From Luteimonas sp. S4-F44 (lineage in GTDB: Bacteria > Pseudomonadota > Gammaproteobacteria > Xanthomonadales > Xanthomonadaceae): a DNA stretch of 64,000 nt. The notes below the pieces were generated by a model. That model was not told the DNA's origin. It made no database searches and was given only the letters and a program-made list of their open reading frames with translations. Made by a program: the position numbers and the translations under genes. Location of the stretch: contig NZ_CP093340.1 in NCBI RefSeq assembly GCF_022637415.1, forward strand, positions 930,001 to 994,000. Reading direction: 5' to 3'. Each line of letters opens with the position of its first letter. Within the stretch, counting starts at the first letter, position 1. Of this stretch, positions 58,263 to 64,000 are shown in pieces.

Positions 58263-60164
58263 ATGCGTTACGACGACTTCCATCGCCGCTCCATCGACGA
58301 TCCCGAAGGGTTCTGGGGCGAGCAGGCGCAGGCGATCCACTGGCACAAGGCGCCCGAGCGGATCCTTGATGATTCCAAGCCGCCATTTCGCAAGTGGTTC
58401 GTCGGCGGCCTGACCAATCTCTGCTACAACGCGGTCGACCGCCATCTCGAGACCGGCGGCGACCAGCTCGCGCTGGTGGCGATCTCGACCGAGACCGGCG
58501 AAACGCGCGAGCTCAGTTATCGCCAACTTCACCGCGAGGTCGTCGACTTCGCCGCGGTCTTGATCGCGCTCGGGGTCGGGCGCGGCGATCGCGTGGTCAT
58601 CTACATGCCCAACATGGCCGAGGCGGTGTTCGCGATGCTCGCCTGCGCGCGGATCGGCGCGGTGCATTCGGTGGTCTTCGGCGGTTTTGCCGCGCACAAC
58701 CTGGCGCTGCGCATCGACGACGCCAAGCCTGCGCTGCTGATCGCGGCCGACGCCGGCAGCCGCGGTGGCAAGGTCATTCCCTACAAGCCGCTGGTGGATG
58801 CCGCCCTGGCGCAGGCGACATCGCCGCCGCCGCGCGTACTGATCGTCGACCGCGGGCTCGCGCCCGGCGGGTCACGGGTCGAAGGACGCGATGTCGACTA
58901 CGCCACGCTGCGCGCCGCGCATGCCGGCAGCGATGTGCCGGTCGAATGGCTGGAATCCAACGAGCCCAGTTACCTGCTCTACACCTCGGGCACGACCGGC
59001 AAGCCCAAGGGCGTGCAGCGCGATGTTGGCGGCTACGCGGTCGCGATGGCGCTGTCGATGTGGGCGATCTATGACGTGCGTCCGGGCCAGGCGATGTTCT
59101 CGACCTCCGACGTCGGCTGGGCGGTCGGCCACTCCTACAACGTCTACGGTCCGCTGATCGCCGGTGCCACCGCGATCCTCTACGAAGGTCTGCCGACGGC
59201 ACCCGATGCGGGCATCTGGTGGAAGATCTGCGCCGACTATGGCGTGCGCACGATGTTTTCCTCGCCGACCGCGATCCGCGTGCTGAAGAAGCAGGACCCG
59301 AAGTTCCTGCGCCAGTACGACCTGTCGGCGCTGCGCTATCTGTTTCTGGCCGGCGAGCCGCTCGACGAGCCGACCGCGAGCTGGATCAGCGCCGGCCTGG
59401 GCGGCACGACGATCATCGACAACTACTGGCAGACCGAGACCGGATGGCCGGTGCTGGCGCTGATGCCCGGGGTCGAGATGAAGCCGGTGAAGTTCGGTTC
59501 GCCCGGACTGCCGACGCCCGGCTACGACCTGCGCGTGATCGACGAGGCAACCGGCGAGCGGGTGCCGCCGGGCACCAAGGGCGTGCTGGTGATCCAGCCG
59601 CCGCTGCCGCCGGGCTGCATGACTACAGTGTGGAACGACGACGCGCGGTTCCTGTCGAGCTACTTCTCGCACTTCAAGGCGCTGGTCTACAGCTCACTGG
59701 ACTGGGCGATCCAGGACGCGGATGGCTACACCTTCATCCTCGGGCGCACCGACGATGTCATCAATGTCGCCGGCCATCGCCTGGGCACACGCGAGATCGA
59801 GGAGTCGGTGGCCAGTCACCCGGCCGTCGCCGAGGCCGCGGTGATCGGCGTGGCCGACGAGATCAAGGGACAGGTGCCGATCGTGTTCGCGACGCTTAAG
59901 CAGGCCGCGGCCGACCCCCAGGCCCAGCACGCCACCGCCGGGGAGATGATGCGCACGGTCGCCGATCAGCTCGGCGCGGTCGCGCGGCCCGCGCGGGTGT
60001 ATGTCGTCAGTGCGCTGCCGAAGACACGCTCGGGCAAGCTGCTGCGGCGCTCGCTGCAGGCCTTGGCCGAATCGCGCGACCCGGGCGACCTGTCGACCCT
60101 GGACGATCCGAACGCGCTGGAAGAGGTGCGCCGGGTGCTCGCACGCGGCGCCGATGCCGGCTGA
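58263..60164 (+). CDS. prpE: Propionyl-CoA synthetase
   Basis: 633-residue AMP-forming acyl-CoA synthetase that activates propionate for the methylcitrate cycle. The ATP-loop YTSGTTGKPKGVQRDVGG is the PrpE version of the family motif, and Lys592 (SGKLLRRS) is the acetylation-sensitive catalytic Lys. WQTETGWP and the hinge region near DDVINVAGHRLGT follow. It lies convergent to the HTH/citrate synthase gene and near prpBC, so the role is well supported. Confidence 0.92.
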   Translation: MRYDDFHRRSIDDPEGFWGEQAQAIHWHKAPERILDDSKPPFRKWFVGGLTNLCYNAVDRHLETGGDQLALVAISTETGETRELSYRQLHREVVDFAAVLIALGVGRGDRVVIYMPNMAEAVFAMLACARIGAVHSVVFGGFAAHNLALRIDDAKPALLIAADAGSRGGKVIPYKPLVDAALAQATSPPPRVLIVDRGLAPGGSRVEGRDVDYATLRAAHAGSDVPVEWLESNEPSYLLYTSGTTGKPKGVQRDVGGYAVAMALSMWAIYDVRPGQAMFSTSDVGWAVGHSYNVYGPLIAGATAILYEGLPTAPDAGIWWKICADYGVRTMFSSPTAIRVLKKQDPKFLRQYDLSALRYLFLAGEPLDEPTASWISAGLGGTTIIDNYWQTETGWPVLALMPGVEMKPVKFGSPGLPTPGYDLRVIDEATGERVPPGTKGVLVIQPPLPPGCMTTVWNDDARFLSSYFSHFKALVYSSLDWAIQDADGYTFILGRTDDVINVAGHRLGTREIEESVASHPAVAEAAVIGVADEIKGQVPIVFATLKQAAADPQAQHATAGEMMRTVADQLGAVARPARVYVVSALPKTRSGKLLRRSLQALAESRDPGDLSTLDDPNALEEVRRVLARGADAG

Positions 60165-60230: not shown

Positions 60231-61421
60231 TCACTCCGGCTCGATGCCGGTGTAGCGCGCACGGGGCCGGATCAGCCGGCCCAGCGCCTGCTGCTCCAGC
60301 GCGTGCGCCAGCCAGCCCGACAGCCGCCCGGCGGCGAACATCGCCAATGCCGGGGTCGCCGGCAGGTCGTGGACGAAGCAGATCGCCGCCAGCATGCCGT
60401 CGATGTTGGGCGGTCGACCGCTGGTCTCGGCGGCCGCGGCGATGACCGCCTCGACCTGGCGCATCCGCGGCGTGTCGCCGCGCGTGGCGCGCAGCCGCGC
60501 GAGCACATGCGCCGCGCGCGGGTCGCCGTCGGGATACAGCACATGATGGAAGCCGGGCAGGTCGTCGCCGCGCTGCCAGCGCTCGGCGATGTAGGCGGCC
60601 GGCGAGGGCGCATCGCAGGCTTCGCGGATCAACGCATGCGCGCGCGCAGTCGCGCCGCCGTGGCGCGGCCCCGACAAGGCCGCCAAGCCCGCGCAGACCG
60701 TCGCGTGCAGGTGCGCACCGGTGGACGCAACCACGCGCGCGGCGAAGGCCGAGACATTGAGCTCGTGATCGGCGCACAGCACCAGGGCGGTCCGGACCAG
60801 ATCCGCGAAGACCGCATCGCCCGGACACCAGGCCTCGGCGAGCACCCCGTGGACGGGCCGCGCATCGGGCTGGCCTGCGACCAGCAGCGCCGCGTTCTGC
60901 CGCAGTAGGGTCGCCGCGATGCCGCGTTTGGCGGCCGGTGCTGCGCTCAGCGAATGCCGCAGGTCGGGCGCGAGCAGCGGCAGGACCGCCATCGCGCGCT
61001 CGATCGGCGGCAGCGTGGCATCGCCGGCAATCGCCTCGACCCGTGCCGGCCACGGGGCGACGGCGGCATCGAACGGATCGCTGTCGCCGCAGTCCCAGAG
61101 CAGCCGCGCCGTGTCCTCGAGCGTCGCCCCGGCCTCGACCATCGCCACGGCCGAATGCCCGCGGTAATAGGGGCTGTCGGGCCGGATCAGCGAGATCCGC
61201 GTCTCCATTACCGGCAGGCCGCGGTCCAGGCTCTGCGCTGCGCCGCGGGCCGCGCCGCGTCCAGCACGCTTGCGCTGGCCCAGCCGCTCGATGTCCTGGC
61301 GCAGATAGACGCGACTGCGGTGGTCGGGGCCGGGCCGCGAGGCCAGCAGCCCGCGGCTGACGTAGGCATAGAGTGTTGCGGGGCTGATGCCGAGCGCCGC
61401 GCAGGCCTCGGCGGCGGACAT
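60231..61421 (-). CDS. Helix-turn-helix / citrate synthase fusion protein
   Basis: 396 residues. Residues 1 to about 50 are a MerR/excisionase-type HTH (SAAEACAALGISPATLYAYVSRG, with RSRVYLRQDIERL as wing). Residues about 75-396 are a citrate-synthase domain that retains the catalytic set: His254 (GPRHGGA), His293 (GFHHVLYPDGDPRA) and Asp341 (NIDGML), plus His219 and a C-terminal RPRARYTG. It is divergent from prpB. I infer a regulator of the prp genes or a bifunctional enzyme. In-frame GTG (61445) and TTG (61478) starts exist, but ATG 61421 has GAAGG upstream. Confidence 0.82.
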   Translation of the reverse strand: MSAAEACAALGISPATLYAYVSRGLLASRPGPDHRSRVYLRQDIERLGQRKRAGRGAARGAAQSLDRGLPVMETRISLIRPDSPYYRGHSAVAMVEAGATLEDTARLLWDCGDSDPFDAAVAPWPARVEAIAGDATLPPIERAMAVLPLLAPDLRHSLSAAPAAKRGIAATLLRQNAALLVAGQPDARPVHGVLAEAWCPGDAVFADLVRTALVLCADHELNVSAFAARVVASTGAHLHATVCAGLAALSGPRHGGATARAHALIREACDAPSPAAYIAERWQRGDDLPGFHHVLYPDGDPRAAHVLARLRATRGDTPRMRQVEAVIAAAAETSGRPPNIDGMLAAICFVHDLPATPALAMFAAGRLSGWLAHALEQQALGRLIRPRARYTGIEPE

Positions 61422-61461
61422 CAGGTCGCCTTCGTTCGCATTCACTGTGAATTCCGATGTG

Positions 61462-61488
61462 TTGATTGATTCGATCAAGATTGATCAA
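61462..61488. promoter_or_regulatory. TTGAT/ATCAA operator-like cluster in the prpB divergent region
   Basis: Within 27 bases are TTGAT (61462-61466), the 13-base palindrome TTGAT-TCG-ATCAA (61466-61478) and the 8-base palindrome TTGATCAA (61481-61488). The stretch is far more AT-rich than its surroundings. It sits 62 bases before prpB and 41 bases before the start of the divergent HTH/citrate synthase gene, the place for a shared operator. The binding protein is inferred to be that HTH protein. No clear -10/-35 pair was found. Confidence 0.6.
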
Positions 61489-61549
61489 CCAGTCGCAGAG
61501 TGCCAGATTGTGCGTCATCGCGGTACACCGCAGTCCCGGAGTCGCATCG

Positions 61550-62437
61550 ATGAGCCCCCTGTCCGCTGGCGCCCGGTTCCGCGCCGCCCTGTCCGCCGAA
61601 TCGCCGTTGCAGGTGATCGGCGCGATCAACGCCAACCACGCGCTGCTCGCCAAGCGCGCCGGGTTCCAGGCGATCTACCTGTCGGGCGGCGGCGTCGCCG
61701 CGGGCTCGCTCGGCCTGCCGGACCTGGGCATCAACACGCTCGAAGACGTGCTGATCGACGTGCGCCGGATCACCGACGTCTGCGACCTGCCGTTGCTGGT
61801 CGACATCGACACCGGCTTCGGGCCGAGCGCCTTCAACATCGAACGCACGGTCAAGTCGCTGATCAAGGCGGGCGCTGCGGCCTGCCATATCGAGGATCAG
61901 GTCGGTGCCAAGCGCTGCGGCCATCGGCCGGGCAAGGAGATCGTGTCGCAGAGTGAGATGGTCGACCGGGTCAAGGCGGCGGCCGATGCCAAGACCGATC
62001 CCGATTTCTTCCTGATCGCGCGCACCGATGCGATCCAGGTCGACGGCGTGGAGGCCGCGATCGAACGCGCGATCGCCTGCGTCGAGGCCGGCGCCGACGG
62101 CATCTTCGCCGAGGCGGCCTACGATCTGGAGACCTACCACCGGTTCGTCGATGCGGTGAAGGTGCCGGTGCTGGCCAACATCACCGAGTTCGGCAAGACG
62201 CCGCTGTTCACCCGCGACGAGCTGGCCTCGGCAGGCGTTGCGATCCAGTTGTTCCCGCTATCGGCGTTCCGCGCCGCCAACAAGGCCGCCGAGCTTGTCT
62301 ATACCGCGGTGCGCCGCGACGGCCACCAGCAACACGTCGTCGATGCGATGCAGACCCGCGAGGAACTCTACGAGCGCATCGGCTACCACGCCTTCGAGCA
62401 GCGGCTGGACGCGCTGTTCGCATCCAACAAGCAGTAA
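61550..62437 (+). CDS. prpB: 2-methylisocitrate lyase
   Basis: 295-residue lyase that splits 2-methylisocitrate into pyruvate and succinate. KRCGH (121-125) holds the catalytic Cys123, and DIDTGFG is the metal-binding region of the ICL/PEP-mutase superfamily. GGAG precedes the ATG at 61550; the frame is open upstream. prpC follows 33 bases on. Confidence 0.95.
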
Positions 62438-62470: not shown

Positions 62471-63634
62471 ATGAGCGAGACCACCGCTACCACCGCCCCC
62501 GGCTTCAAGCCGAAGAAGTCCGTCGCGCTGAGCGGCACTGCCGCCGGCAACACCGCGCTGTGCACGGTCGGCCGCAGCGGCAACGACCTGCACTACCGCG
62601 GCTACGACATCCTCGACCTCGCGCGTACCAGCGAGTTCGAAGAGATCGCCTATCTGCTGGTCCACGGCAAGCTGCCCAACGAGGCCGAGTTGCGCGGCTA
62701 CAAGGCCAAGCTCAAGTCGCTGCGCGGCCTGCCGGCGGCGGTCAAGGCGGCGCTGGAAGAACTGCCGCCGTCGGCGCATCCGATGGACGTCATGCGCACT
62801 GGCGTGTCGGTGCTCGGTTGCGTGCTGCCGGAAAAGGACGACCACAACCATCCGGGTGCGCGCGACATCGCCGACAAGCTGATGGCCAGCCTCGGCTCGA
62901 TGCTGCTGTACTGGTACCACTGGAGCCACAACGGTCGGGTCATCGACGTGGAGACCGACGACGACTCGATCGGCGGGCATTTCCTGCACCTGCTGCACGG
63001 CGTCCCGCCGCGCGAGTCGTGGGTCCGGGCGATGCACACCTCGCTGATCCTTTACGCCGAGCACGAGTTCAATGCCTCGACGTTCGCCAGCCGCGTGATC
63101 GCGGGCACCGGCAGCGACCTGTATTCGTGCATTGCTGGCGGCATCGGCGCGCTGCGCGGGCCCAAGCACGGCGGCGCCAACGAGGTCGCCTTCGAAGTGC
63201 AGAAGCGCTACGACACGCCCGACGAGGCGGAGGCCGACATTCGGGCGCGTGTGGAGAAGAAGGAAGTGATCATCGGCTTCGGCCACCCGGTCTATACCGT
63301 CAGCGATCCGCGCAACGAGGTCATCAAGGAGGTCGCGCGGGAACTGTCCGACGAGGTCGGCAGTCGCAAGATGTACGACATCGCCGAGCGCCTGGAGGCG
63401 GTGATGTGGGACATCAAGAAGATGTTCCCCAACCTCGACTGGTTCAGCGCGGTGAGCTACCACATGATGGGCGTGCCGACGGCGATGTTCACCCCGCTGT
63501 TTGTCATCGCGCGCACCGCGGGTTGGAGCGCGCACGTCATCGAGCAGCGCATCGACGGAAAGATCATCCGCCCCAGTGCGCACTACACCGGTCCGGAGGA
63601 CCAGCCGTTCGTGCCGCTCGCCGAGCGTAAGTAA
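62471..63634 (+). CDS. prpC: 2-methylcitrate synthase
   Basis: 387-residue synthase joining propionyl-CoA and oxaloacetate. His233 (PKHGGAN), His272 (GFGHPVY) and Asp323 (NLDWFS) are the catalytic residues, with His198 in the substrate site. Sequence and context identify PrpC rather than GltA. It is the catalytic counterpart of the HTH fusion encoded upstream. A repeat-filled spacer follows. Confidence 0.95.
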
Positions 63635-63786: not shown

Positions 63787-64000
63787 ATGAACAGCCAGCA
63801 CCGCAAGCCCCTTCCCGGTACCGACCTCGACTGGTTCGACGCGCGCGAGGCGGTCGAGGCGTTGTCGCCCGGCGCCTTCGATCGCATGTCCTACACGGCT
63901 CGGGTGCATGCCGAGAACCTCGTGCGGCGCTGCGATCCGGCGCTGCTCGACGATGCGCTGCGGCAGCTGATCGAGTTGCGTCGCGACCTCGACTTCCCGT
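63787..64000 (+). CDS. acnD: 2-methylcitrate dehydratase AcnD (partial, cut at right edge)
   Basis: The first 71 codons only. The opening NSQHRKPLPGTDLDWFD and TARVHAENLVRRCDP match the N-terminus of the Fe/S-dependent AcnD as I remember it. AcnD dehydrates 2-methylcitrate and usually works with PrpF. Start ATG 63787; the gene runs on past 64000. The [4Fe-4S] cysteines would lie outside the window. Confidence 0.88.
   Translation, partial: MNSQHRKPLPGTDLDWFDAREAVEALSPGAFDRMSYTARVHAENLVRRCDPALLDDALRQLIELRRDLDFP

Follow-up and report, generated by a model that had tools for sequence, protein, structure and literature searches.

Several unrelated regulators of the 2-methylcitrate cycle have been described. 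PrpR of Salmonella and E. coli is a Fis-family sigma-54 activator dedicated to this cycle. According to the available text of PMC9765439, 2-methylcitrate is the signal for PrpR of Salmonella and Corynebacterium and probably for that of Pseudomonas, and all analysed Xanthomonadales are stated, on the authority of another work, to be under a Fis-type PrpR; the GntR-family PrpR of Pseudomonas aeruginosa is portrayed there as a putative ligand-released prp repressor with a palindromic operator. PrpR of X. citri is reported to repress prp via a palindrome in the prpB promoter and to be unresponsive to 2-methylcitrate (PMC12153269, available portion). MtPrpR/IsaR of mycobacteria is a one-component prp regulator that senses a pathway metabolite, binding CoA or short acyl-CoA with a [4Fe4S] cluster (PMC6765138, available portion), and MocR regulators carry an enzyme-derived, aminotransferase-like sensor behind a GntR helix-turn-helix (HTH) domain (PMC5320631, available portion). 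Here we analyse a window of 64,000 nucleotides (positions 930001–994000 of the 3.69 Mb single-contig genome of Luteimonas sp. S4-F44), in which a gene encoding an HTH domain fused to a citrate synthase domain (HTH-CS) is divergent from prpB-prpC-acnD-prpF.

We favour, with a probability of roughly 0.78, the reading that the HTH-CS protein is a one-component repressor with a former citrate synthase as its ligand sensor, acting at an operator over the putative –35 box of prpB. Like PrpR of Salmonella and E. coli, it would be dedicated to the 2-methylcitrate cycle, but it is unrelated to Fis-type PrpR, lacks the PrpR_N domain and has the citrate synthase fold as its sensor. Ligand release from a palindromic operator would liken it to P. 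aeruginosa PrpR, whereas the HTH and sensor families differ: neither a GntR winged HTH nor FCD was matched in the HTH-CS protein by the Pfam scan, and the motif printed in the available text of PMC9765439, ATTGTCGACAAT, is not the operator described below. With MtPrpR/IsaR it would share the sensing of a pathway metabolite by a one-component regulator, though through other domains. It follows the same principle as MocR, in that one chain combines an HTH with an enzyme-derived sensor, and it has an operator of its own; the HTH, the enzyme fold and the ligand differ. The architecture and its database name, "citrate synthase family protein", were already known. Among the matches listed in our literature search, no HTH-citrate synthase regulator is described, and neither a regulatory interpretation nor the operator nor the switching of partners was found in print. 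Suvorova (2012) is said to have introduced four new regulators of malonate and propionate catabolism, and the HTH-CS protein may be among them.

Architecture of the HTH-CS protein

The regulator gene occupies 60231..61445 on the minus strand, encoding 404 amino acids from a probable GTG start, with an alternative ATG at 61421. The minus-strand open reading frame 60231–61478 carries HTH_17 at residues 19–66 and a full Citrate_synt domain at 86–406 (numbering of the TTG frame). HTH_17 (PF12728) scored 33.0 bits against a cut-off of 27 and Citrate_synt (PF00285) 194.8 bits against 27, in agreement with the first-pass annotation, which had seen an HTH joined to a full-length citrate synthase domain in one reading frame. 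Two MerR models bring the matched Pfam families to four; PF13411 passed its cut-off (22.8 versus 21.6) and PF00376 fell below it (22.8 versus 28.2). These profiles identify an N-terminal winged HTH of the MerR/HTH_17 type, and a winged HTH is also present in the predicted model. In GTG numbering the protein comprises the winged HTH (~8–50), a linker helix (~49–74) and the citrate synthase domain (~75–404). The helix at 49–74, a candidate for a MerR-like dimerisation coiled coil, is present in the predicted model, which is that of a monomer and has a predicted local distance difference test score (pLDDT) below 50 over residues 65–77. The citrate synthase fold is recognised: the 50 matches listed by the fold search all cover the citrate synthase part and say nothing on the HTH. 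Both architecture and fold are supported by computation.

The GTG at 61445 is probably the start rather than the ATG at 61421, because the ATG is missing from several relatives that nonetheless have similar residues ahead of its position. Database copies begin at one or the other, giving 404 (GTG, e.g. P0001) or 396 amino acids (ATG, e.g. P0005), and both starts leave the operator outside the gene. A TTG at 61478 is an unlikely start, as it would make part of the operator (61462–61478) coding; alignments with less close relatives begin at residues 13–19 of the TTG frame.

The operator and the prpB promoter

Between the regulator gene and prpB lies a 27-base stretch, TTGATTGATTCGATCAAGATTGATCAA, at 61462–61488. 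It contains the predicted operator, TCAATCTTGATCGAATCAATCAA (61462..61484, minus strand), with the consensus TCAATnTTGATn7ATCAA read along the regulator gene. The first-pass annotation had pointed to these 27 bases and to a TTGAT-TCG-ATCAA palindrome within them. The stretch is present, well beyond what chance would give, and a deeper motif in it is conserved, but the palindrome with a 3-base spacer is not (it is absent, for example, in L022, L025 and L032); what is conserved is the form with a 7-base spacer and an upstream TCAAT half-site. In the 150 bp upstream of the HTH-CS gene of relatives, TTGA often precedes the whole pattern.

After removal of duplicates and of loci L002, L003, L033 and L035, and with matches not covering the HTH excluded, the site TCAATnTTGATn(6-7)ATCAA was found with at most one mismatch just upstream of the HTH-CS gene in 129 of 152 unique loci, against none of 2636 control windows taken from these loci. 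It is present in 41/41 close and 88/111 distant loci (exactly in 37 and 70, with a 6- or 7-base spacer); the distant counts describe a sample, as 30/46 and 30/49 matches returned loci and 80 of 595 loci were kept. Sorted by divergent neighbour, the site accompanies prpB in 40/40, citrate synthase in 60/68, CoA-transferase in 14/16, dehydrogenase in 5/5 and other genes in 10/23 loci. Where a phylum is named, it occurs in 31/38 Alpha-, 17/20 Beta- and 6/6 Gammaproteobacteria, in 3/3 Chloroflexota and 2/8 Myxococcota, and, at the same tolerance of one mismatch, in 0/3 Acidimicrobiia and 0/1 Gemmatimonadota loci.

The exact form with a 7-base spacer was also searched for across whole genomes. In 398 genomes of the phylum it occurs at 50 places in 49 genomes, and at 40 of these places an HTH-CS gene of the same orientation follows within 150 bp, while a reversed control pattern gave three matches; eight of these genomes have an HTH-CS gene without the exact site. 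Among 120 relatives, the site occurs once in each of 44 genomes, of which 41 carry the gene at threshold, with no match for the control pattern. In the remaining three, a diverged HTH-CS gene lies beside the site of G088, none was seen in G080, and the G096 contig stops 27 bases past the site. In the Luteimonas genome the exact form occurs once, leaving acnD and prpF without an exact site of their own; if controlled, they would be controlled through the prpB operon. A large regulon was considered and rejected: allowing up to three mismatches gave 15 places in this genome, one perfect and the next best with two mismatches.

Residues of the HTH covary with bases of the site. Members with Y28N/S have TTGACG before TCAAT in 6/6 cases (0/143 in the others), and members with A27T have TCGAT for TTGAT in 3/3 cases (1/146 in the others). 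Residues 27 and 28 lie in the near-invariant TLYAYVSRG motif, whose second tyrosine is residue 28 and which is exact in 124/150 members (proteins of 340 amino acids or fewer were excluded from the residue-conservation counts). As far as covariation can tell, the HTH appears to read the conserved site. The database name would suit a redundant citrate synthase of the ordinary kind whose HTH is vestigial, lying next to the operator of another regulator. We regard this as very improbable and reject a vestigial HTH: the operator tracks the gene across genomes and co-changes with the HTH, and TLYAYVSRG is conserved. With a predicted operator of 23 bp and two HTH residues linked to operator bases, both DNA binding and sensing are open to direct test.

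The prpB-side end of the operator, TTGATCAA (61481..61488), includes TTGATC at 61481–61486, which we place as the putative –35 box of prpB; a –10-like CAGATT with an extended TGC (61504..61509, plus strand) lies 17 bp from it. Of the 41 unique close loci, 32 have TTGATC 17 bp before TGnCAnATT, a pattern picked after viewing the sequences. The operator would then cover the –35 box of a normally spaced promoter, as would be expected where a repressor blocks transcription, and in 20/70 distant loci the first in-frame start codon comes 1 nt after the operator. Because the operator lies over the putative –35 box and the start codon can follow it by a single base, repression in both directions with release by a ligand is our preferred reading. 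Alternatively, the same protein at the same operator might recruit or remodel RNA polymerase at the –35 box when ligand is bound, in the manner of MerR. The HTH_17/MerR-type HTH and the overlap with the putative –35 box would suit such an activator, and without a strict sigma-70 promoter a weak promoter needing help is conceivable. However, MerR promoters are reported to have 19–20 bp spacers (PMC8113463, available portion), against 17 bp in 32/41 loci for the predicted prpB promoter; a start codon 1 nt past the operator suits autorepression; and the prp regulators of X. citri and P. aeruginosa are described as repressors in the available parts of PMC12153269 and PMC9765439. We consider activation unlikely.

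Citrate synthases work as dimers. Under the repressor reading, a homodimer with two N-terminal winged HTHs would bind the operator region (61462–61488) between the regulator gene and prpB. When no signal is present, prpBC-acnD-prpF and the regulator gene would both be repressed, with the operator over the –35 box and near the regulator start. As propionyl-CoA is processed, a ligand would occupy the retained active site, either 2-methylcitrate, the product of PrpC, or otherwise oxaloacetate plus an acyl-CoA; it would close the two-lobed citrate synthase fold, thereby moving the HTHs and releasing the DNA. The DNA binding, repression, ligand and allostery of this scheme are what we infer for the HTH-CS protein; 2-methylcitrate is a first guess, because PrpR of Salmonella and Corynebacterium, and probably of Pseudomonas, uses it.

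Two side observations concern the exact operator. Locus L105 (G082) has a 65% identical HTH-CS gene with the exact operator and no adjoining prpB, the best prpB of that genome being on another contig. At L231 (G788:C3:429995) a second exact operator lies ~2.9 kb from a second HTH-CS gene, with a 2-hydroxyacid dehydrogenase relative encoded in the same stretch.

Catalytic residues and the sensor pocket

In GTG numbering, H227 (in ADHE), H262 (in GPRHGG) and D349 (in PNID), which we take to be the classical citrate synthase triad, are all intact in the Luteimonas protein. The first-pass annotation had listed His254, His293 and Asp341 as catalytic. Counted from the ATG at 61421, His254 and Asp341 are indeed the classical residues of GPRHGG and PNID, but His293 is the conserved GF-H-H histidine, outside the triad, and the other catalytic histidine, that of ADHE, is residue 219 in the same count. 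Arginines R310, R374 and R393 are kept in 150/150 members and in 32 aligned enzymes; their equivalents are carboxylate binders in citrate synthases. Sensing through the retained enzyme pocket is supported indirectly.

The protein might instead be a trigger enzyme, that is, an active (2-methyl)citrate synthase with DNA-binding ability, the flux through its own active site being the signal. Intact triads would suit this, but the evidence below makes it quite unlikely. None of the matched NCBIfam enzyme models reaches its cut-off on the HTH-CS protein, whose best score, 148.5 bits versus 332, lies below the curated enzyme families. At least one catalytic residue has been lost in 10/109 distant members, by at least six changes on the tree, and 5 of these 10 retain the operator within one mismatch. 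CitC of Caulobacter crescentus, moreover, is reported to fail to complement an E. coli gltA mutant, whereas CitB complements it (PMC7083601, available text). CitC is very probably an HTH-CS member and CitB its divergent partner: at two Caulobacter loci the HTH-CS protein is 34–34.5% identical to E. coli GltA and the divergent partner 29.5–30%, the printed identities being 33% for CitC and 30% for CitB (PMC7083601, available text). The available main text of that paper treats CitC as a putative citrate synthase only, without mention of an HTH, MerR or DNA-binding domain. Because CitC fails in gltA complementation and catalytic residues are lost in distant members, the question of whether the HTH-CS protein is itself enzymatic leans to no. 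A regulatory function would explain the failure of CitC to act as a citrate synthase in E. coli and give a role to a family that databases name citrate synthase.

Relation to PrpR, neighbouring genes and family origin

As the first-pass annotation had supposed, no PrpR gene is evident: PrpR_N (PF06506) has no match in this genome. The domain occurs in 3/120 relatives. In G052 and G068 it takes the place divergent from prpB that the HTH-CS gene has here, with no HTH-CS at threshold, and G099 has HTH-CS at prpB and PrpR_N far away. Among 169 family genomes, 36 have HTH-CS, 18 have PrpR_N and none has both (hypergeometric 0.010). The operator, the adjacency to prpB and the absence of PrpR are supported by computation. 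Control of prpBC and of the regulator gene itself, as suggested earlier, is strongly supported by synteny, the cross-phylum operator, the co-change with the HTH, the 0/169 genomes shared with PrpR and the operator on the putative –35 box; the protein very probably regulates the prp genes, about as securely as comparative genomics allows. It would then add another, unrelated kind of regulator to those of the 2-methylcitrate cycle, in an order in which every genome analysed by then is stated to rely on Fis-type PrpR (PMC9765439, available text).

Several observations weigh against the favoured repressor reading. A strict consensus promoter scan called no promoter and the –10 element is weak, so that activation is possible. 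The site is lacking at up to one mismatch in 23/152 loci, and in 9/398 genomes an exact site is present with no HTH-CS gene, either at threshold or in the stretch that was fetched. When the HTH is left out of the tree, Y28N/S and A27T each map to one change, giving two co-changes, not nine. All three catalytic residues are intact in 140/150 members, which fits an enzyme too, and CitC was equated with a family member from percent identities and gene adjacency and not from the NA1000 sequence itself. The 0/169 co-occurrence statistic ignores relatedness; at the genus level there is no exclusion, with HTH-CS in 10/54 genera, PrpR_N in 6/54 and one genus shared (g53, in different species), the chance of no shared genus being 0.27.

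Of ten same-genus loci without HTH-CS (L084–L093), 8/10 have prpE, prpB and prpC labelled on the same strand, and no divergent regulator was recognised there by the few queries used.

In the window, prpB (2-methylisocitrate lyase, 61550..62437, plus strand; TIGR02317, 412.4 bits versus 354.4) is followed by prpC (2-methylcitrate synthase/citrate synthase, 62471..63634, plus strand; NF009006, 719.4 versus 550) and the start of acnD (63787..64000, plus strand), which runs past the window and precedes prpF (TIGR02333 and TIGR02334 above cut-off in L232). On the other side, prpE (propionate-CoA ligase, 58263..60164, plus strand; TIGR02316, 1146.8 versus 827.4) is convergent with the regulator gene. 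The divergent arrangement with prpB described at first sight is therefore borne out, with prpB, prpC and prpE above the NCBIfam cut-offs. It had been proposed to check homologues for adjacency to prpB and a conserved palindrome. Adjacency holds in 40/41 unique loci of at least 56% identity, but distant loci mostly adjoin citrate synthase, and the palindrome is kept in its 7-base-spacer form. The divergent neighbours of 111 distant loci are citrate synthase (68), CoA-transferase III (16), 2-hydroxyacid dehydrogenase (5) and unlabelled genes (22); the unlabelled ones, when scanned, proved to be transporters (including two tricarboxylate TctC receptors), five S-adenosylmethionine (SAM) methyltransferases, LeuB and others. 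Two partner citrate synthases that were scanned are PRK12350 members above cut-off.

At L038, L106 and L107, prpB is only ~64% identical to that of the window and the same kind of regulator is divergent from it, which suggests an in situ replacement of either prpB or the regulator. At L163, L164, L167, L173 and L115 (three Myxococcota, two other), HTH-CS is divergent from a SAM-dependent methyltransferase gene; that this has to do with aconitate methylation is no more than a guess.

In a quick maximum-likelihood tree of 78 citrate synthase domains, the 46 HTH-CS domains form one group (Shimodaira–Hasegawa-like approximate likelihood ratio test, SH-aLRT, 99), as do the 22 partner enzymes (97) and the Xanthomonadales regulators (100), and HTH-CS and partners are sisters with a value of 80; the rows are a sample with few other citrate synthases, and several long branches leave the deep order uncertain. 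A single origin of the HTH-CS family is supported by computation. With the tree rooted on GltA, early branches adjoin citrate synthase or other genes, not prpB, and prp control was therefore probably a later capture; the class of neighbour changed at least 19 times on a larger tree. The family would be a case of an enzyme turned sensor, with its own paralogue as the probable ancestral neighbour. A fuller scenario, which we offer tentatively and with the odds well against it, is that these cross-phylum regulators arose once, from an HTH and a duplicated citrate synthase, first controlled the sister citrate synthase gene, and were later rewired to tricarboxylate and acyl-CoA genes and, in Xanthomonadales, to the methylcitrate cycle. 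In the same scenario, since most members examined retain the catalytic triad, the active site of the regulator may itself make or capture the signal, a product of the citryl or methylcitryl type, so that the protein would read acyl-CoA and oxaloacetate supply jointly and not a single metabolite. In the partner citrate synthases, Glu replaces the catalytic Asp of PrpC and GltA in 22/22 cases (for example at L042, L056 and L118).
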